Source: Rudaea cellulosilytica DSM 22992
GTDB lineage: Bacteria > Pseudomonadota > Gammaproteobacteria > Xanthomonadales > Rhodanobacteraceae
Length of the DNA: 64,000 bases
Direction: 5' to 3'
Assembly (NCBI RefSeq): GCF_000378125.1
Contig: NZ_KB899241.1
Coordinates: forward strand, 186,001 to 250,000
Positions 5,147 through 49,181 of this stretch are shown in pieces. The notes under the pieces were generated by a model that did not search any database, was not told where the DNA came from, and saw nothing but the letters and a program-made list of their open reading frames with translations. Within the stretch, counting starts at the first letter, position 1. Every line of letters starts with the position of its first letter. Both the position numbers and the translations under genes were made by a program.

Positions 5147-5157
5147 CGCCGCGAACC

Positions 5158-5218
5158 AGGGAGATGGCATGCCTCCCGCTCCGCCGCGAGCGAACCACCG
5201 CAAGGTTGATGATGCCTG
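5158..5218 (+). promoter_or_regulatory. Fluoride riboswitch (crcB RNA motif)
   Basis: The segment matches the fluoride aptamer layout: GGGAGATGGCATGCCTCC forms the first stem with the conserved GATGGCAT element, then a spacer, then AACC/GGTT forming the second hairpin, then the conserved TGATGATGCCTG tail that folds back as pseudoknot and long-range pairs. It lies 79 bp before the start of crcB, the commonest target of this riboswitch class. The downstream CCGGC-AAC-GCCGG hairpin at about 5223-5235 may be part of the expression platform (inference). Fluoride binding is expected to turn on crcB expression. Confidence 0.9.
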
Positions 5219-5296
5219 ATGTACCGGCAACGCCGGACGTCGGGCAGTGCGTGCAGCGGCCCGGCGCCCGGACCCTTCGCTCGAACCAGGAAGCGC

Positions 5297-13787: not shown

Positions 13788-13806
13788 TTCCTTTCCCAGT
13801 ACTCAT

Positions 13807-13864
13807 GCGCTCGTCCTTGATCGCGAAAGTCAAAAAGCGGCCATCCTTGGCCGCACTTCTCAAC
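13807..13864 (+). repeat. Double-hairpin dispersed repeat, copy A
   Basis: This 58-bp element has a first imperfect hairpin (GCGCTCGTCCTTGATCGC), a short A-rich linker, a second perfect hairpin (GCGGCCATCCTTGGCCGC; 7-bp stem, TCCT loop) and the tail ACTTCTCAAC. The same design recurs at 30498-30556 (inverted) and 33308-33364. Copy A fills the gap between the PKHD hydroxylase and PepSY genes, and its end touches the hydroxylase stop codon. Confidence 0.88.
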
Positions 13865-14550
13865 TATGGCTCGGCCCATCGACGAAGCAGGTTGTGGTAG
13901 ACACCGGTCAGCTCGACCAGCGCGGGATGGTCGACCTGGCTCTGGCCGAGCTTGCGGATCGCGAGGTCGAGGTCGAACAGCAGCCGGCGTTCGCCCGCGT
14001 CGCGCACGAGGCTCTGGATCCAGAAGAACGAGGCAAGCCGTTCGCCACGCGTAATCGGCTCCACCCGATGCACGCTAGCCGCGGAATAAAGCAGCATGTC
14101 GCCCGCGGGCAGTTTCACGCGTTGCGCGCCGACCGTGTCCTCGATGACGAGTGCGCCGCCGTCGTACTCATCCGGCGAAGACAGGAACAAGGTCGCCGAC
14201 AGATCGGTGCGTACGGCCTGCACGAGCTGGCCGCTGCGGTCGTAGCGCACGGCGTTGTCGATGTGTGCACCGAAGCCATCGCCGACGCGGTAGCGGTTGA
14301 ACAGTGGCGGGAACACGCACTGCGGCAGGGCGGCGGCGAAATACGTCGTGTTCGCCTTGAGCGCCGTGCGCACAAGCGCGCCGAGTTCCGTCGCGACGGG
14401 ATCGTCCTCGGCCAATTGCAGATTGCGCTTGGCGCGCGCGGACTGGTGGCCCGCCGTAACCTTTCCATCCACCCAGGCCGCTGCCGCGAGTCGTTCACGG
14501 AACAAGCGAACCTGAGCCTGGTCGAGGATGGCGGGGATGTGCAGCAGCAT
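13864..14550 (-). CDS. piuC: Fe(II)/2-oxoglutarate-dependent PKHD-type hydroxylase (PiuC/YbiX)
   Basis: A 228-residue dioxygenase matching the PKHD-type hydroxylase family. The Fe(II) facial triad is His96, Asp98 (GFGAHIDNAVR) and His161 (ASVHRVEPITRGER), with Arg171 as the likely 2-oxoglutarate ligand. Other family marks are GHQSARAKRNLQL, LFLSSPDEYDGGALVIED and LPAGDMLLY. It begins 18 bp after the TonB receptor stop and should be co-transcribed with it; piuC homologues regularly follow iron-regulated receptors. The physiological substrate is not known from sequence. Confidence 0.93.
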   Translation of the reverse strand: MLLHIPAILDQAQVRLFRERLAAAAWVDGKVTAGHQSARAKRNLQLAEDDPVATELGALVRTALKANTTYFAAALPQCVFPPLFNRYRVGDGFGAHIDNAVRYDRSGQLVQAVRTDLSATLFLSSPDEYDGGALVIEDTVGAQRVKLPAGDMLLYSAASVHRVEPITRGERLASFFWIQSLVRDAGERRLLFDLDLAIRKLGQSQVDHPALVELTGVYHNLLRRWAEP

Positions 14551-30484: not shown

Positions 30485-30497
30485 GTTCGCAGCTCTT

Positions 30498-30556
30498 GTT
30501 GAGAAGTGCGGCCGCGGATGGCCGCCTCTTGATTCCCGCGATCACGGACGATCGCG
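30498..30556 (-). repeat. Double-hairpin dispersed repeat, copy B (inverted)
   Basis: Read on the minus strand it runs GCGATCGTCCGTGATCGC, a short linker, a GCGGCC...GGCCGC hairpin and the tail ACTTCTCAAC. It has the same two-hairpin order as copies A and C. It lies directly upstream of the suf regulator start codon, so it should be part of the suf leader RNA or promoter region. Confidence 0.88.
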
Positions 30557-33204: not shown

Positions 33205-33233
33205 TTGACGGACCGGTCGATACGGCATATCTT
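33205..33233 (+). promoter_or_regulatory. Predicted promoter of the nrdAB riboswitch leader
   Basis: TTGACG at 33205-33210 and TATCTT at 33228-33233 are spaced by 17 bp. Transcription would start near 33240, at the front of the cobalamin riboswitch region, and shortly after the SDR stop. Confidence 0.5.
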
Positions 33234-33239
33234 GTGTTC

Positions 33240-33535
33240 GTCAACGGCGTCCAACCCAGCATATTGTTGGCGAGGACTTAATCGGGAACCCGGTGAGAGG
33301 GATTTTTGCGATCGTCCCCGATCGCGAAGATCAAAAAGCGGCCATCCGTGACCGCACTCCTCAATTCCAGGACTGCCCCGCAGCGGTGACCGGGAACGAA
33401 CGGTGCCAACAGCACTGGGCCGAAGATGTGGCGAACCACTCGCCGCATTCGACGATCTGGGAAGCGGCATCGCAGTAGGTGAGACAGGCGCTGCGCAAGC
33501 TGCCTGTGTCGCGCCCGGGAGTCCGAATACCGGCC
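33240..33535 (+). promoter_or_regulatory. Cobalamin riboswitch upstream of nrdAB, with a repeat inserted in its P5 loop
   Basis: The B12 riboswitch core is recognisable: GGGAACCCGGTGAGA, then TTCCAGGACTGCCCCGCAGC, then CAACAGCACTGGG, CTGGGAAGCGG, CAGTAGG and the closing CCCGGGAGTCCGAATACCGG. Every block aligns with the metE switch at 37262. Between GGTGAGA (ending 33298) and TTCC (33365) there are about 66 extra bases, nearly all repeat copy C. The P5 stem can still pair (CCCGG with CCAGG, one mismatch). B12 should repress the downstream B12-independent ribonucleotide reductase. Confidence 0.82.
33308..33364 (+). repeat. Double-hairpin dispersed repeat, copy C, inside the cobalamin riboswitch
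   Basis: GCGATCGTCCCCGATCGC (7-bp stem) is followed by a linker, then GCGGCCATCCGTGACCGC (one mismatch) and the tail ACTCCTCAA. It is the same element as copies A and B. It occupies the loop of the riboswitch P5 arm. Confidence 0.88.
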
Positions 33536-33758
33536 CGCGATCGTCGTGCGCAAGCGCGGCGTCTGGCTTGCAGACCTTCGCGGGAAGGATAGCCGGGCAG
33601 TGACGGTCGTCGTTCGTTTCGACACCCCGTTCCTGTCTCGTCTCTCCCACCAAGTTCTGTGCTCGCTCGCGGGAGCGAAGGCCGGCGGTTGCGGCCTGTT
33701 CCGGTTCCCGCATCGCCTGCCTCGCTTCCTTTCGTAACACCGACAAGGAGAGGCACCC
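33536..33758 (+). other. Riboswitch expression platform and nrdA leader; no gene seen
   Basis: This 223-base stretch between the aptamer and nrdA contains CTTCGCGGGAAGG at 33576-33588, which also occurs at the equivalent place in the metE leader (37483-37495), and the nrdA ribosome-binding site AAGGAG. No credible ORF is seen. Confidence 0.5.
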
Positions 33759-36212
33759 ATGTCCCACGTAGAAACCCTCGCGCCCGCGACAACGCCGTTG
33801 TTGTCGGCCGCCACCGCCCTCGCCGCTCCGCCGAACCAAACCGGTTTCGCCCTGACCCCGCCGCACAACGCACCCGCGGCGATGCGCGTGACCAAGCGCT
33901 CGGGTGCGAGCGAACCGGTCGATCTCAACAAGATCGTGCGCGCGGTGACACGCTGCGGCGATGGTCTGCGCGACGTCGATCCGATGCGCGTCGCGGTGAA
34001 GACGATCACCGGCCTCTACGACGGCGCCTCGACGCGCGAGCTCGACGAGCTGTCGATCCGCACCGCCGCCTCGCTGATCGCCGAGGAGCCCGAATACTCG
34101 CAACTCGCCGCGCGCCTGCTTGCCGGCTATGTCGACAAGGAAGTCCAGGTACTCGGCGTCTACTCGTTCTCACAGTCGATCCGCCTCGGCTTCGACCTGG
34201 GCCTGATCAACGAACGCGTGCTCGCCTTCGTCGAAACCCACGCGCGCAAGCTCAACGATGCGATCGATGCGAGCCACAATGCGCGCTTCGAGTATTTCGG
34301 CCTGCGCACGCTCTACGACCGCTACCTGCTCAAGCATCCGCACAAGCGTCAGGTCATCGAAACGCCACAGCATTTCTGGATGCGCATCGCCTGCGCGCTG
34401 ACGCAGACGACGAGCGATGCGATCGAACTTTACCGCCTGTTCGCCACACTCGACTACGTGCCGAGTTCGCCGACGCTGTTCAATGCCGGTACGCGCCACG
34501 AGCAATTGTCGAGCTGTTTCCTGCTCGACTCGCCGGCCGACTCGCTCGACGCGATCTATGAGAAATACAAAGACATCGCGCAGCTGTCGAAATTCTCCGG
34601 CGGCATCGGCGTGGCATGGCATCGCGTGCGCGCGGAGGGCTCGCTCATCCGTTCGACCAACGGCCTGAGCAACGGCATCGTGCCGTGGCTGAAGACGCTC
34701 GACTCCTCGGTCGCCGCGGTCAACCAGGGCGGCAAGCGCAAGGGCGCGGCCTGCGTGTATCTCGAATCGTGGCACGCCGACGTCGAGTCCTTCCTCGAAC
34801 TGCGCGAGAACACCGGCGACGAGGCGCGGCGCACGCATCATCTCAATCTCGCCAACTGGGTGCCGGACCTGTTCATGCGCCGCGTCGACGAAGACGGCGC
34901 GTGGTCGCTGTTCGATCCCGCGGACGTGCCCGACTTCCCCGATCTCTGGGGTGCCGCATTCGAGCAGGCCTACGTGCAAGCCGAAGCGCGCGGCCTGGCG
35001 AAGAAAACACTCAAGGCGCGCGATCTCTACGCGAAGATGATGCGCACGCTTGCGCAGACGGGCAACGGCTGGATGACGTTCAAGGACGCCTGCAACCGCG
35101 CCTGCAACCAGACCGCGCAGGCCGAAAACCGCGTGCACCTGTCGAATCTCTGCACCGAGATCATCGAAGTCACCGGCGGCGCAGAAACCGCGGTGTGCAA
35201 TCTCGGTTCGATCAATCTCGCGCGCTGCGTCATCGACGGCGCCTTCGATTTCGACAAGCTCGCACACACGGTGCAGATCGCCGTGCGCCAGCTCGACCGC
35301 GTGATCGATCTGAATTTCTATCCGATCGCGACCGCGCGCGCCTCGAACTTGCGCTGGCGGCCGGTCGGCTTGGGTTTGATGGGCCTGCAGGACGTATTCT
35401 TCCAGTTGCGCCTGGCGTTCGATTCGCCCGCCGCGCGCACGCTGTCGGCGCGCATCTCCGAGGAGATCTATTACCACGCGCTGCACACCTCGCTCGAACT
35501 CGCGCGCGAGCACGGCGCACACGCCGCGTTCGCGGACACGCGGGCTTCGCGAGGCGAGTTGCAGTTCGATGCGTGGAACGTGACGCCTAGCGATACCGTG
35601 CGCTGGAACGCGCTGCGCGAGGAGATCAAGGCACACGGTCTGCGCAACTCGCTGCTGATCGCGATCGCGCCGACCGCGACGATCGCCTCGATCGCCGGCT
35701 GCTATGAGTGCATCGAGCCGCAGCTGTCGAACCTGTTCAAGCGCGAGACGCTGTCCGGCGATTTCCTCCAGGTCAACCGCTATCTCGTCGAGGAACTCAA
35801 GCGCCTGGGACTGTGGACGACCGAGATCCGCGACGCGATCAAGCTCGCCGAAGGTTCGGTGCAATCGGTAGCCGCGCTGCCCGAAGAACTCAAGGTTATC
35901 TATCGCACGGTCTGGGAACTGCCGATGCGCGCGTTGATCGACATGGGCGCCGAGCGCGGTGCCTTCGTCGACCAAAGCCAGTCGCTGAACCTGTTTATCG
36001 AGAACCCGAACATCGGCCAGTTGTCGAGCATGTACATGTACGCTTGGAAGAAAGGCTTGAAGACAACGTACTACTTGCGCTCGCGGCCGGCGACGAAGAT
36101 CGCCAAGACCACGGTGGCGGCGAGCGATGCGACGCCGAAGAAGACCTATTCCGACAGCGATGCCGTCGTCTGCTCGCTCGAGAACCCGGAACTGTGCGAG
36201 GCCTGCCAATGA
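33759..36212 (+). CDS. nrdA: Class Ia ribonucleoside-diphosphate reductase, alpha subunit
   Basis: An 817-residue catalytic subunit that reduces ribonucleotides to deoxyribonucleotides. An N-terminal ATP-cone is present (RVTKRSGASEPVDLNKIVRA). The barrel carries the redox pair and radical cysteines: Cys253 (SSCFLLD), Cys465 (NLCTEI) and Cys480 (CNLGSINL), and the C-terminal ELCEACQ provides the shuttling CxxC. The start ATG has AAGGAGAG in front. NrdB overlaps its stop by 4 bases. Control by a cobalamin riboswitch implies that the genome also encodes a B12-dependent class II enzyme (inference). Confidence 0.97.
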   Translation: MSHVETLAPATTPLLSAATALAAPPNQTGFALTPPHNAPAAMRVTKRSGASEPVDLNKIVRAVTRCGDGLRDVDPMRVAVKTITGLYDGASTRELDELSIRTAASLIAEEPEYSQLAARLLAGYVDKEVQVLGVYSFSQSIRLGFDLGLINERVLAFVETHARKLNDAIDASHNARFEYFGLRTLYDRYLLKHPHKRQVIETPQHFWMRIACALTQTTSDAIELYRLFATLDYVPSSPTLFNAGTRHEQLSSCFLLDSPADSLDAIYEKYKDIAQLSKFSGGIGVAWHRVRAEGSLIRSTNGLSNGIVPWLKTLDSSVAAVNQGGKRKGAACVYLESWHADVESFLELRENTGDEARRTHHLNLANWVPDLFMRRVDEDGAWSLFDPADVPDFPDLWGAAFEQAYVQAEARGLAKKTLKARDLYAKMMRTLAQTGNGWMTFKDACNRACNQTAQAENRVHLSNLCTEIIEVTGGAETAVCNLGSINLARCVIDGAFDFDKLAHTVQIAVRQLDRVIDLNFYPIATARASNLRWRPVGLGLMGLQDVFFQLRLAFDSPAARTLSARISEEIYYHALHTSLELAREHGAHAAFADTRASRGELQFDAWNVTPSDTVRWNALREEIKAHGLRNSLLIAIAPTATIASIAGCYECIEPQLSNLFKRETLSGDFLQVNRYLVEELKRLGLWTTEIRDAIKLAEGSVQSVAALPEELKVIYRTVWELPMRALIDMGAERGAFVDQSQSLNLFIENPNIGQLSSMYMYAWKKGLKTTYYLRSRPATKIAKTTVAASDATPKKTYSDSDAVVCSLENPELCEACQ

Positions 36213-37227: not shown

Positions 37228-37259
37228 TTGACGATGGACGTCTAGACATCTAGACTGCC
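37228..37259 (+). promoter_or_regulatory. metE promoter overlapped by three tandem met boxes
   Basis: TTGACG (37228-37233) and TAGACT (37251-37256), 17 bp apart, form a promoter whose start would be near 37263. Overlaid on it are three contiguous 8-bp units, GGACGTCT, AGACATCT and AGACTGCC (37236-37259), close to the MetJ met-box consensus AGACGTCT. A MetJ-like repressor with S-adenosylmethionine would block this promoter (inference). Confidence 0.6.
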
Positions 37260-37261
37260 AA

Positions 37262-37444
37262 TTGCTGAAGGTGCCGGAAGTAACGCTCCGGCTGAAAAGG
37301 GAATCCGGCGAAAATCCGGAGCTGCCCCGCAGCGGTATGTGGAAACGAATTCGTCAACAGCACTGGGTGTTACGGCCCGGGAAGCGGCGATCAGTAGGAG
37401 GGCTCGAATCATCGAACCCGTGTCCACGAGCCCGAAGACCTGCC
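37262..37444 (+). promoter_or_regulatory. Cobalamin riboswitch upstream of metE
   Basis: Conserved blocks occur in canonical order: GCTGAAGGTGCC, GGGAATCCGGCGAAAATCC, the closing of P5 and CTGCCCCGCAGCGG, CAACAGCACTGGG, CCCGGGAAGCGG, CAGTAGGA, and the closing CCCGAAGACCTGCC. The L5 loop is of ordinary length here, in contrast to the nrdA copy. It would switch off the B12-independent methionine synthase when cobalamin is available. Confidence 0.94.
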
Positions 37445-37685
37445 TTGGCCGAACGGTTTGCGCCGTTCGATACGACTCGGAACTTCGCGGGAAGGTTTCG
37501 GGCGAATGCCTGCCTGCGCCTTGCGCGGATGCGCCCTCGCCTTCGATCCCCGCTGAATTCCGTTTCGCCCGCGGGGGCGAGGGTCGACGCTGCGCATGAT
37601 CTTCTGCGTGACTCGACTCACGGCGGTTGCTCTGCGATAGCGCCTGCTTTCGTTCCTCTGTGTCCATCACGCATGAGGAATTCAC
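37445..37685 (+). other. metE leader/expression platform; no gene seen
   Basis: About 240 bases hold the shared CTTCGCGGGAAGG at 37483-37495, a GGCCGAACGG...CCGTTCG hairpin near 37447-37470 and the metE ribosome-binding region (GAGGAATTC). I see no ORF with coding character. Confidence 0.5.
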
Positions 37686-39959
37686 ATGTCACAAGTCACC
37701 AATCTCGGCTTTCCGCGCATCGGCCGCAGGCGCGAACTGAAGATCGCTCTCGAAAGCTACTGGAAAGGCGCGATCGACGCCGACGCGTTGCACGCCACCG
37801 CGCGCGAGCTGCGTCAACGTCACTGGCAATTGCAGCGCGAAGCCGGTGCGGATGTCGTGCCGGTCAACGACTTCACCCTGTACGACCACGTCCTCGACAC
37901 GGCCTGGCTGTTCGGCGCCGTGCCGTCCGGTTACCTCGAACTGGCCAAGACCGATCCACTTGCCGCCTATTTCGCCACTGCGCGCGGATACAAGTCAGCC
38001 GGACGCGACCTGCGTGCGCTCGAAATGACCAAATGGTTCGACACGAACTATCACTATCTCGTACCGGAATTGACGCGCGATCAGGCATTCGCTCTGTGTG
38101 GCGGCAAACCGATCGCCGAATTTCTCGAAGCGCGCGCACTCGGCCACGAGGCGCGCCCCGTCTTGCTCGGTCCGGTGTCGTTCCTGCTGCTGTCGAAAAC
38201 CGTCGACGGCGGCGATCGCCTCGCCCTGCTCGACAAGCTCGTCCCGGTCTACGCGGACCTGCTCGGCAAGCTCGCCGACGCCGGTGCGGAATGGGTGCAG
38301 ATCGACGAACCGTTCCTCGCCCTCGACCTCTGCGACGCCGCCCAACACGCATATCGGTACGCCTACGCCGCGCTCGCCGAGACGCGTACGCCGAAGCTGC
38401 TGCTCGCAACCTACTTCTCCGGGCTCGACGAGAACCTGCCGCTGGCGACCTCGCTGCCGGCGCACGGCCTGCACGTCGACCTCGTGCGTGCGCCGCACCT
38501 GCTCGACGCCGTGCTCGACCATCTGCCCGACGACCGCGTGCTTTCGTTGGGCCTCGTCGATGGACGCAACATCTGGCGCGCCGATCTGCACGCGGCGTCC
38601 GGCTTGATCAAGCGCGCGCGCGCCGCAGTCAGCGCGCACCGCCTGCAGCTCGCACCGTCGTGCTCGCTGCTGCACGTGCCGATCGATGCGGGCATGGAGA
38701 GCGCGCTCGAAATACATCCTTGGCTCGCTTTCGCGTGCGAGAAAATCGCCGAGCTGCGCACGCTGGCCGACGCGGCAGAAGGCGACACCGCCGCGCTCGC
38801 CGCGGTGGCCGCTTCGCGCGAATTGCAAAAGGCGCGACGCACATCGAAGCTCGTCGTCAACCCGGGCGTGCGCGAACGCCTGAAACAGAGCTCGACGCAA
38901 TTGCAACGGCGCGGTTCGGATTACGCGGCGCGTAAACTCAGGCAGGCGCAAACGCTGGCCCTGCCGGTCTATCCGACGACGACGATCGGCTCGTTCCCGC
39001 AGACCGCCGAGGTGCGTCACGCGCGCGCCGCGTATCGCGCGGGCAAGCTCAGCGAGTCCGAGTACCAGACCTTCCTGGAGAACGAAACCGCTCAGGCGGT
39101 ACGCATCCAGGAGGGACTCGACATCGACGTGCTCGTGCACGGCGAGTTCGAGCGCAACGACATGGTCGAATACTTCGGCGAGCAGCTCGACGGATTTGTG
39201 TTCACCAAGCAGGGTTGGGTGCAGAGCTATGGATCGCGCTGCGTGAAACCGCCGATCATCTATGGCGACGTTTCGCGCCCGCGGCCGATGACAGTCGCCT
39301 GGTCGCGCTACGCGCAATCGCTGACGAAGCGGCCGATGAAAGGCATGCTCACCGGGCCGGTGACGATGCTGCAATGGTCGTTCGTGCGCGACGACCAGTC
39401 GCGTGCCGAAACGTGCAAGCAGATCGCGCTGGCGCTGCGCGATGAAGTGGTCGACCTCGAGGCGGCCGGCATCCGCGTGATCCAGATCGACGAACCCGCG
39501 TTGCGCGAAGGTCTGCCGTTGCGCCACAAGGATCGGGATGCCTACCTCGCCTGGGCGGTCGCCTGCTTCCGCATCGCCGCGGCCGGCGCGCGCGACGAGA
39601 CGCAGATCCATAGCCACATGTGCTATGCCGAGTTCAACGACATCATCGATGCCGTCGCGGCAATGGATGCCGATGTGATCTCGATCGAAACCTCGCGTTC
39701 ACGCATGGAGCTGCTCGAGGCATTCACGAAGTTCCAGTATCCGAGCGGCATCGGTCCGGGCGTCTACGACATCCATTCGCCGCACGTGCCCGAACAGACC
39801 GACATGCTCGAGTTGCTGTACAAGGCCCGCACGCGGCTCAAGCCCGATCAGCTTTGGATCAATCCCGACTGCGGACTGAAGACGCGCGACTGGCCCGAGG
39901 TGAAGGCGGCGCTGAGCGCGATGGTCGGCGCGGCGAAGGCATTGCGCCAGGAGGCCTGA
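37686..39959 (+). CDS. metE: Cobalamin-independent methionine synthase
   Basis: A 757-residue MetE that transfers the methyl group of methyltetrahydrofolate polyglutamate to homocysteine. The N-terminal domain starts NLGFPRIGRRRELK. The zinc site in the C-terminal domain is His644, Cys646 (HSHMCYAEF), Glu668 (ISIETSRS) and Cys729 (NPDCGLKTRDW), each three residues downstream of the E. coli positions. TTTIGSFPQTAEVR and VLVHGEFERNDMVEYFGE are standard. The protein is full length. It is controlled by the cobalamin riboswitch and possibly by met boxes. Confidence 0.98.
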   Translation: MSQVTNLGFPRIGRRRELKIALESYWKGAIDADALHATARELRQRHWQLQREAGADVVPVNDFTLYDHVLDTAWLFGAVPSGYLELAKTDPLAAYFATARGYKSAGRDLRALEMTKWFDTNYHYLVPELTRDQAFALCGGKPIAEFLEARALGHEARPVLLGPVSFLLLSKTVDGGDRLALLDKLVPVYADLLGKLADAGAEWVQIDEPFLALDLCDAAQHAYRYAYAALAETRTPKLLLATYFSGLDENLPLATSLPAHGLHVDLVRAPHLLDAVLDHLPDDRVLSLGLVDGRNIWRADLHAASGLIKRARAAVSAHRLQLAPSCSLLHVPIDAGMESALEIHPWLAFACEKIAELRTLADAAEGDTAALAAVAASRELQKARRTSKLVVNPGVRERLKQSSTQLQRRGSDYAARKLRQAQTLALPVYPTTTIGSFPQTAEVRHARAAYRAGKLSESEYQTFLENETAQAVRIQEGLDIDVLVHGEFERNDMVEYFGEQLDGFVFTKQGWVQSYGSRCVKPPIIYGDVSRPRPMTVAWSRYAQSLTKRPMKGMLTGPVTMLQWSFVRDDQSRAETCKQIALALRDEVVDLEAAGIRVIQIDEPALREGLPLRHKDRDAYLAWAVACFRIAAAGARDETQIHSHMCYAEFNDIIDAVAAMDADVISIETSRSRMELLEAFTKFQYPSGIGPGVYDIHSPHVPEQTDMLELLYKARTRLKPDQLWINPDCGLKTRDWPEVKAALSAMVGAAKALRQEA

Positions 39960-46194: not shown

Positions 46195-46367
46195 TACCTG
46201 CAATCCACGCGGACCGCATCGCGGTGTGCGGTGGTGCGCTCGACCCGGACCAACACGGACTGCTCGCCGACAGGCTGTCGACAAACACGGTTTTCGGTCG
46301 TGGCGTCATCGCGGCGCAATCTGTCGCGGTTCAAATCGTTTGATTGACGCAAACATGGAGACCGTTC

Positions 46368-49181
46368 ATGCCTCATCTCGCAGCACGCCGTCGTCTCGCG
46401 CTCGTCATCGCTCTGGCACTGGGCATCGGCAGCCCGCTCGCCATCGCCGCACCCTCGAGCATTGATTACGAAGACCACTTCGAATTCGACGCAAGCCTCG
46501 ATGCTCCGTATCTCGCCGATGTGGCGCACAGCCGCGAATTCACCCTGCACTTGCGTTTCCCCGGTGCGGCCGACGGCAGCGTCATCGGCTGGAAGCTGGA
46601 AATCGTCGATGCCAACGGCGCCGTCGTGCGCACATGGCGCGGCGAGGAAAACCTGCAGCGCGGTTCCGTTGACGCGCAGGTGCGCTGGTCCGAGTTCGAT
46701 CCGCAGAACAGCGCACTGCCGAACGGCATTTACACCGCGCGCATGTCTGCGTACGCGTTGCCGTCCTACCTCGGCGGCGGTGACACGTACGGCACGCTCG
46801 CGCAGCGCGTGGATGCCGCGCTGGGCAATTCCTCGAACGACATCATCGAACAGGATTCCGAAGTCAAGGTGGGCTATGTCGAGCCGCCGCTGATGCCCGC
46901 ATTCGCGCCGCTGCCAACGAACGCTTCTACGCACGCATCGCAGCCGGACTCGACGGGCCCGCAATCGGCGCAGGCCGCACGCCAATCGACGATCGACTCC
47001 ACCTCGGCTACCGCGAGCCTGCCCTACACGGTCTACTACGGCAACCTGCACAGCCAGACCGGCCTGTCCGACGGCAGCGGTTATCCGCTGTCGAGCTGCA
47101 ACAGCGAGCAGAACCCGCAGAGCGGCACGGGCGGCAATGCGACTGCCGCCTACACCTATGCGATGAACCACGGTCTCGATTTTCTTATGACCAGCGAACA
47201 CAACCACATGTTCGATGGTTCGACCAGCACCAATACCTCGGCCAATCCGACTTCGGTCAAGGCGCTGTACCAGTCCGGCCAGACGATGATGAGCAACTGG
47301 AACGCCTCCCACACCAACTTCCTCGCCCTGGCGGGCATGGAGTGGGGCGTGATCAGCAACGGCGGCCATATGAACGTCTTCAACGCCGACAAGCTAGTGG
47401 AATGGGAGTACAACAGCTCGAACCAGTTGCTCGGCGACATCTTCGTGGCGAAGAGCGACTACGCCAGCATGTACACGACGATGAAGAACAACGGCTGGAT
47501 CGGCCAGTTCAACCATCCGGCCAGCACCGGCCAGTTCACGATCAACGGAACCGACCTCGCCTACACCGCCGACGGCGATGCGGTGATGGTCACTTGCGAA
47601 ATCATGAATTCGTCCGCCTTCTCGAACGTCGAAGACGAGTCGCAGGGCGCGGGCGGTGGCTACGCGGCCGCGTGCAACAAGCTGCTCGAAGCCGGCTACC
47701 ACGTCGCCTTCTCGTCCGACCAGGACAACCACTGCGCCAACTGGGGTGCCAGCTACAGCAACCGCACCGGCGTGCTGCTGCCGACCGGCCAGGCGCTGAA
47801 CCGCACGAACTTCCTCGCCGCACTGCAAGCGCGCCACGTGTTCGCTACCTGGGACAAGACCGCGCAGATCGTGCTGACCACCGACGGCGGCCACATCATG
47901 GGCGACCAGTTCAGCCATTCGGGCGCACTCACCCTCACCGTCAACTATGCGCCCGGCACCGGCCGCAGCGCATCGACCGTGAAGATCTACCAAGGCGTAC
48001 CGGGCAGCAATGGCACGGTCACCTCGACCACGCTGAGCGGCAATACCTACACGACCACACCGGCGAACGGCAGCTACTTCTACTATGCCGTGGTCACCCA
48101 GGACAACGGCACGCAGCTTTACTCCGCGCCGGTGTGGGTGAACCAGGGCGCGAGCAGCGGCGATACGACACCGCCGACGGTCAGCGCCTCCGAATCGGGC
48201 ACGAGCGGCACGATCACGCTGTCGGCCACGGCCAGCGACAACGTCGGCGTGAGCAAGGTCGAGTTCTACGTTGACAACGTACTCAACGCGACCGACACGA
48301 CCTCGCCGTACTCGTCCACGCTCGACTCGACCACGCTCGCCAACGGCAGCCACAACCTGGTCGCCAAGGCCTATGACGCGGCCGGCAATATCGGCACGAG
48401 CAGCACGGTCGCTTTCTCGGTCAGCAACTCGACGACCGACACGACACCGCCGACCGTGAGCGCCTCCGAATCGGGCACGAGCGGCACGATCACGCTGTCG
48501 GCCACGGCCAGCGACAACGTCGGCGTGAGCAAGGTCGAGTTCTACGTCGACAATGCGCTCAAGGCGACCGACACGGCCTCGCCGTACTCGTCCACGCTCG
48601 ATTCGACCACGCTCGCCAACGGCAGCCACAACCTCGTCGCCAAGGCCTATGACGCGGCCGGCAACGTCGGCACGAGTTCAACGGTCGCATTCTCAGTCAG
48701 CAACACGGTCACCGCGACCGAACTGATCACGAACGGCGGCTTCGAATCCGGCAGCACTGGCTGGACCGCGACAAGCGGCGTGATCACGAATCAGACCGGC
48801 GAGTCGGCGCATGCCGGAAGCTACTACGCCTGGCTCGACGGCTACGGCGCGGCTACGACCGACACGGTCAAGCAGAGCGTGTCGATTCCCTCGGCCGCGA
48901 CCACGGCGACGCTGTCGTTCTGGCTGCACGTCGACACCGCCGAGACGACCACGACGACCAAGTACGACACGCTGACCGTGCAACTGCTCAACAGCTCGGG
49001 CACCGTGTTGACGACACTGGCGACCTACTCGAACCTCAACGCGAACACGGGTTACGCGCAAAAGAGCTTCGATGTGAGCACGTACAAGGGCCAGACCGTG
49101 CAGGTCTACTTCAAGGGCGTCGAGGACAGCGCGTACCAGACCTCGTTCGTCATCGACGACGTCAGCCTGAAGTCGCAGTAA
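46368..49181 (+). CDS. Secreted PHP/CehA-like metallohydrolase with Ig-like repeats and C-terminal carbohydrate-binding-like domain
   Basis: A 937-residue exported protein. After a signal peptide (LALVIALALGIGSPLAIA) comes a domain with a PHP-type metal site: NLHSQTGLSDG (His228), FLMTSEHNHMF (Glu277-His-Asn-His280), AGMEWGV, GQFNHP and FSSDQDNHC. Two near-identical bacterial Ig-like modules follow (each 92 residues, TVSASESGTSGTITLSATAS core), then a jelly-roll module beginning ITNGGFESGSTGWTA. GGAGA precedes the ATG at 46368; a TTG at 46344 is also in frame. Such proteins hydrolyse phosphoesters or related compounds; the substrate is unknown. Confidence 0.85.
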   Translation: MPHLAARRRLALVIALALGIGSPLAIAAPSSIDYEDHFEFDASLDAPYLADVAHSREFTLHLRFPGAADGSVIGWKLEIVDANGAVVRTWRGEENLQRGSVDAQVRWSEFDPQNSALPNGIYTARMSAYALPSYLGGGDTYGTLAQRVDAALGNSSNDIIEQDSEVKVGYVEPPLMPAFAPLPTNASTHASQPDSTGPQSAQAARQSTIDSTSATASLPYTVYYGNLHSQTGLSDGSGYPLSSCNSEQNPQSGTGGNATAAYTYAMNHGLDFLMTSEHNHMFDGSTSTNTSANPTSVKALYQSGQTMMSNWNASHTNFLALAGMEWGVISNGGHMNVFNADKLVEWEYNSSNQLLGDIFVAKSDYASMYTTMKNNGWIGQFNHPASTGQFTINGTDLAYTADGDAVMVTCEIMNSSAFSNVEDESQGAGGGYAAACNKLLEAGYHVAFSSDQDNHCANWGASYSNRTGVLLPTGQALNRTNFLAALQARHVFATWDKTAQIVLTTDGGHIMGDQFSHSGALTLTVNYAPGTGRSASTVKIYQGVPGSNGTVTSTTLSGNTYTTTPANGSYFYYAVVTQDNGTQLYSAPVWVNQGASSGDTTPPTVSASESGTSGTITLSATASDNVGVSKVEFYVDNVLNATDTTSPYSSTLDSTTLANGSHNLVAKAYDAAGNIGTSSTVAFSVSNSTTDTTPPTVSASESGTSGTITLSATASDNVGVSKVEFYVDNALKATDTASPYSSTLDSTTLANGSHNLVAKAYDAAGNVGTSSTVAFSVSNTVTATELITNGGFESGSTGWTATSGVITNQTGESAHAGSYYAWLDGYGAATTDTVKQSVSIPSAATTATLSFWLHVDTAETTTTTKYDTLTVQLLNSSGTVLTTLATYSNLNANTGYAQKSFDVSTYKGQTVQVYFKGVEDSAYQTSFVIDDVSLKSQ
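48162..48713 (+). repeat. Two tandem 276-bp Ig-module repeats
   Basis: The modules begin with GAT/GAC-ACGACACCGCCGAC at 48162 and 48438, 276 bp (92 codons) apart. They differ by only a few substitutions over their length, including silent ones, which points to a recent duplication or gene conversion. Confidence 0.85.

Follow-up and report, generated by a model that had tools for sequence, protein, structure and literature searches.

The leader of nrdA in Rudaea cellulosilytica DSM 22992 contains a cobalamin riboswitch in which one copy of a dispersed repeat splits the P4 loop (L4). Judging from sequence comparison, we consider it quite probable that the inserted repeat is a tolerated arm and that B12 is still sensed by the switch. 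Such recruitment recurs in the Rhodanobacteraceae. We analyzed 64,000 nucleotides of contig NZ_KB899241.1 (the window). Window coordinates are numbered from its first letter; nrdA, the parts of its leader, the metE switch and the fluoride riboswitch are on the plus strand.

An extra arm in the nrdA cobalamin riboswitch

The Rfam model RF00174 matched 33228-33552 over the full length of the model (positions 1-189) with 63.2 bits and an E value of 2.9e-13, against a gathering score of 31.5. Downstream lies nrdA (33759-36212), encoding the ribonucleoside-diphosphate reductase alpha subunit (TIGR02506, 726 bits, cut-off 341). In the Rfam alignment, the extra bases fall between GGUGA and AAUUCC. 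From this alignment and from reading the sequence, the 5′ strand of P4 is CCCGG (33289-33293). It is followed by UGA (33294-33296), the 5′ part of the L4 T-loop, then by an inserted arm of 66 nt (33297-33362) and by AAUU (33363-33366), the 3′ part of the T-loop; the repeat consensus likewise ends in AA. The 3′ strand of P4 is CCAGG (33367-33371), in which A33369 stands opposite C33291; all four same-genus orthologues have G at this position.

The arm is closed by GAGGG (33297-33301) and UCCUC (33358-33362), including one G.U pair. Inside it are hairpin 1, UUGCGAUC / GAUCGCGA (33306-33327), and hairpin 2, GCGGCCA / UGACCGC (33338-33355). In the predicted ensemble, the arm in the window showed 98.6% self-pairing. 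The first-pass annotation had described about 66 extra bases in this switch as a repeat copy, and the Rfam alignment, 41 BLAST matches in the genome and four orthologues without the block all bear this out. The bases do lie within a loop, as it stated; their limits needed correction, since the arm occupies 33297-33362, between UGA and AAUU, and not 33299-33364.

The interrupted loop had been named P5/L5, and the insertion was raised as a possible disturbance of the kissing contact between L5 and L13. We dropped this interpretation. In the published nomenclature the loop that kisses L13 is L5, with the consensus UCCCG (PMC10653944), and L13 forms part of the expression platform (PMC9600662). 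What the arm interrupts is the neighboring loop, L4, the T-loop on P4. The proposed mechanism, a changed or lost kissing contact, is therefore misplaced because it rests on the wrong loop. L5 is the next loop (P5/L5, CUGCCCCGCAG, 33373-33383); it is uninterrupted and identical in five nrdA leaders. Its CCGC is complementary to GCGG (33580-33583) in the loop of a putative P13/L13 hairpin, CCUUC-GCGG-GAAGG (33575-33588), which is conserved in the leaders of the orthologues. By sequence, L5 can pair with L13 in a putative kissing contact. The B12 box region, AGUCCGAAUACCGGCC (33520-33535), is also identical in the five leaders. The stem that closes the interrupted loop, which had been expected to form still, is P4 and not P5, and it can form only with one C.A mismatch.

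Some further features were recorded in this leader and elsewhere in the window. The nrdA switches of this genus have a B12 box that diverges from those of btuB and metE switches. In its P6 accessory region, the nrdA switch of the window has a loop extended by 34 nt (33419-33452); this extension is partly common to G004 and is not found in G002, G012 or G014. The metE switch, to which the nrdA switch was originally compared, lies at 37252-37461 (RF00174, 108.2 bits) upstream of MetE (37686-39959), and its L4 is uninterrupted. A fluoride riboswitch was found at 5151-5225 (RF01734, 36.4 bits, just over the gathering score of 34). The window also contains a 276-nt tandem duplication (48161-48712, copies 92% identical) within a long open frame (46344-49181).

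Orthologous leaders lack the arm

The nrdA leaders of four same-genus genomes, G002, G004, G012 and G014, lack the arm and align to the window along both of its flanks. Their loops read GGTGGAAATCC in G002, GGTGTGAATCC in both G004 and G012, and GGTGCGAATCC in G014. The flanks are near-identical, and a single block of extra sequence, at L4, distinguishes the window from these leaders. No obvious target-site duplication was seen at the nrdA site on comparison with the four empty sites. Using a simple pattern, we found a likely switch upstream of nrdA in 35 of 80 loci of relatives; most of these switches were uninterrupted and a few carried a short hairpin. When ten nrdA loci were scanned with Rfam, RF00174 matched at nine, and the tenth had only about 200 upstream bases. 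In Oleiagrimonas sp. C23AA, two divergent cobalamin riboswitches lie about 100 bases apart upstream of nrdA (L056, 2011-2307 on the minus strand and 2411-2651 on the plus strand).

Because the four same-genus orthologues and most nrdA leaders of other genera in which a switch could be recognized are uninterrupted, the comparison identifies the arm in the window as a derived insertion. The uninterrupted orthologues likewise support the earlier proposal of a mobile repeat inserted into a riboswitch, which would have fallen had every relative carried the arm as an ancestral part of the switch. We also considered that the arm might be an old, inherited part of these switches that was lost from the relatives. 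Such persistence is real for some btuB lineages, since in genus g5 the same closing stem, GUUG/CAAC, carries either the full repeat (G280) or a one-hairpin version of it (G387, G444) in the L4 of btuB switches. For nrdA, however, ancestry of the arm would leave the empty sites in all four same-genus relatives and in most other genera to be explained by losses. A single gain is far simpler, and an inherited arm is very improbable.

The repeat is dispersed and forms two hairpins

The 41 BLAST matches in the 4.34-Mb genome ranged from E 2e-28 down to 1e-4. The repeat is about 66 nt long and consists of two hairpins, with the consensus TTTATTTTTGCGATCGTCCCTGATCGCGAAAATCAAAAAGCGGCCATCCTTGGCCGCACTTTTCAA. 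The internal hairpins are clear, and the ends vary between copies. Across the nine riboswitches with a full-length copy (see below), 97.7% of cells in the internal hairpins stay paired: 98.6% in hairpin 1, which is mostly invariant, and 96.7% in hairpin 2, in which two pairs have changed on both sides. Further copies in the window lie at 13806-13871 (+) and 30491-30555 (-). The latter stops some 15 bases short of an apparent gene start on the minus strand (MLRVSKLTDYATVVM...), so other leaders may also be transcribed with a copy of the repeat.

With a length of about 66 nt, two hairpins, and tens of dispersed and some tandem copies, the repeat resembles the small bacterial repeats of the REP and MITE types. 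It differs in that no transposase partner was found in this genome. We rejected its classification as a REP element mobilized by a RAYT transposase, for which copies would be expected to flank a Y1 transposase gene: the one Y1_Tnp hit in the genome has no repeat in its 3.3-kb locus.

The same repeat occupies L4 in other riboswitches of the family

A search of same-genus genomes with RF00174 revealed four other switches with the same repeat at the same place. We then surveyed 198 Rhodanobacteraceae genomes with a pattern for long P4-loop inserts. In all, nine full-length repeat arms were found: in the nrdA switch of the window (G000), in the mmsA switch of G014, and in the btuB switches of G011, G005, G009, G280, G475, G016 and G415. 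Gene identity was checked against NCBIfam for nrdA, mmsA and one of the btuB genes; the remaining btuB genes were assigned by shared receptor sequence. The nine cases come from genera g1, g2, g5 and g32, and the orientation of the repeat is identical throughout. A one-hairpin version is present in three g5 switches (two in G444, one in G387). Short unrelated hairpins at the same L4 position are common in the family. Beyond the family, no further cases were found in the order among 399 genomes drawn from the larger group and searched with the exact pattern only.

On the btuB tree, the repeat label needs at least 3 changes (gains or losses), which are forced by well-supported branches. Adding nrdA and mmsA implies at least 5 gains or losses by this reckoning. 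Within the family, this recruitment has taken place several times. The repeat-bearing btuB switches score 101-115 bits with RF00174. Our best reading of these sequences is that a mobile repeat has time and again been taken up as a helical extension of L4, one with which the aptamer fold is compatible. Separately, the btuB switch of G009 has another repeat-like stretch, shorter than the first, which lies in its P6 accessory arm and not near L13 (L150, 1549-1570, minus strand; profile E 3e-4). A similar insert in the P6 arm of G014 btuB is not claimed, since the profile match is weak (E 0.016).

By rough reckoning, about 40 copies placed randomly in a few hundred kb of intergenic DNA would hit P4 loops in roughly one genome per thousand. 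Set against this rate, the observed recurrence suggests one or more of three causes: targeting, spread from switch to switch, and long retention. A broader proposal is tentative and, in our view, possible without being the expectation: the P4 T-loop would be a preferred landing site of the repeat, through hairpin-loop targeting or the spread of ready-made arms, repeat arms would be a main source of the variable L4 helices in Rhodanobacteraceae, and some of them may tune the switch.

The arm fits the T-loop frame

Barrick and Breaker (2007; PMC2258182) described a helix that in some cases intervenes at one position of the T-loop on P4. Such interrupted loops read U-G-N, the helix, R-A, two bulged bases and P4; the window reads UGA-[arm]-AAUU. 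In all nine repeat-bearing loops, the sequence between the P4 strands is U-G-N-[helix]-N-A-NN, and the same frame is seen in 54 of 54 distinct short-hairpin loops, 47 of which have at least 3 closing pairs. By this comparison, the repeat sits at the T-loop position that naturally takes a helix. P4 has five pairs in eight of the nine repeat-bearing switches and four in the window switch, in which the T-loop frame is kept.

The closing stems of the nine repeat arms have 4-7 contiguous pairs, wobbles counted, and they pair despite differing sequence (for example GAGGG/UCCUC, GUUG/CAAC, AAGUUG/CAACUU, GAGAAGU/ACUUCUC and GAGUGU/ACGCUC). As a control, the flanks of genome-wide copies were combined in the same register; at least 3 pairs formed in 6% of combinations and at least 4 in 2.8%. 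Duplex energies were lower than in 45 other copies (combined p 4e-4, a set in which the G009 arm was mis-parsed and its p of 0.35 is meaningless). These fit statistics overstate independence because some of the nine cases are orthologous.

We propose that a copy of the two-hairpin repeat entered the T-loop of the nrdA switch in the lineage of the window, at the position that accepts a helix. Both As in the 3′ part of the T-loop can come from the repeat, which ends in ...CUCAA. The final bases of the repeat would pair with those just 5′ of its core (GAGGG/UCCUC), which would make the insert a self-contained arm closed by a stem. Around this arm, the T-loop frame, the kissing loop L5, L13 and the B12 box would remain in place.

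Transposition is the plain reading of how the repeat arrived. A serious alternative is that the arm was copied ready-made, by recombination, from another repeat-bearing cobalamin switch; the donor tract would have left the C.A mismatch as its trace. At both of its ends, the loop of G475 btuB agrees with that of the window (GGTGAGAG...CTCAATTCCAG), and the P4 of the G475 switch is GCTGG/CCAGC. It is the likeness of both ends, together with a window CCAG that fits the P4 of G475 but not its own, that gives this alternative its weight. The G014 mmsA loop is also similar (83% over 107 bases). On the other hand, the genome of the window now has no other repeat-bearing switch, and the likeness may stem from the common T-loop frame and repeat end. 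We regard copying as a real but minority possibility. It concerns the route alone, and it is compatible with a tolerated arm.

Function of the window switch

Of 153 aptamer columns that are otherwise invariant, five are changed in the window switch alone, including one at the insert; other species have 3-10 such changes. One substitution, A33369 in place of G, breaks the central pair of P4. The Rfam score of 63 is the lowest among nrdA leaders, compared with 91-103 in the orthologues. Ligand-free free-energy folding predicted no P4 in the window switch, and in silico replacement of A33369 by G raised the P4 probability only to 0.06. The same folding also predicted no P4 in the mmsA switch, whose P4 is fully paired. 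We therefore rejected the thermodynamic P4 probability as a discriminator: with a score of zero for the intact mmsA P4, it failed to separate intact from damaged switches.

The broken central pair, the low score and the predicted ensembles without P4 could mean that the insertion and the mismatch damaged the aptamer, so that nrdA would no longer respond to B12 and the switch would be in early decay. We consider this unlikely. The number of window-specific changes is inside the range of other species, L5, P13 and the B12 box are all kept, and the eight other repeat-bearing switches have an intact P4 and mostly high scores. It is fairly probable that the window switch retains function. Either loss or alteration of B12 control, or an arm "tolerated as an extension", had been foreseen, and the comparative evidence favors the latter.

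A class II, B12-dependent reductase gene (nrdJ) was found in this genome above the curated cut-off. Cobalamin switches of this kind generally repress class I reductases where a class II enzyme can take over, and the presence of nrdJ gives B12 control of nrdAB a purpose. When B12 is sensed by the tolerated-arm switch, the class I reductase would be turned down, and B12-dependent NrdJ would be able to take over.

Discussion

The window switch shares its aptamer family, T-loop frame and exact insertion position with the RF00174 AdoCbl switches that have a helix-interrupted P4 T-loop (PMC2258182). In that description there is only an intervening helix, whereas the helix in the window is a dispersed, recently acquired repeat that fills this position in several gene contexts. 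A second comparison is the BOX element of the pneumococcal trp leader, which separates two T-box riboswitches (PMC3049150). In both cases, a small structured mobile repeat lies in a riboswitch-controlled leader and regulation is apparently kept. However, BOX lies between two complete riboswitches, and the repeat described here is inside one aptamer, in a loop that makes tertiary contacts. A review deemed the formation of riboswitches by small repeats conceivable (PMC10969869). In our searches of open-licence papers, we found no report of a mobile repeat lying within a riboswitch aptamer or recurrently forming a helix there.

Peripheral riboswitch helices are often variable, yet one seldom sees how they arise. 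In this case the stages can be followed: a repeat dispersed in the genome, orthologues with an empty site, and a single loop position that has been filled repeatedly in three gene contexts. Base-paired closure of the arm leaves the tertiary-contact motif in frame. The natural series of empty loop, short hairpin, one-hairpin repeat and full repeat is a testbed for whether mobile repeats act as building material for RNA switches or upset them. In this family, spare parts for such switches seem to come from mobile repeats.
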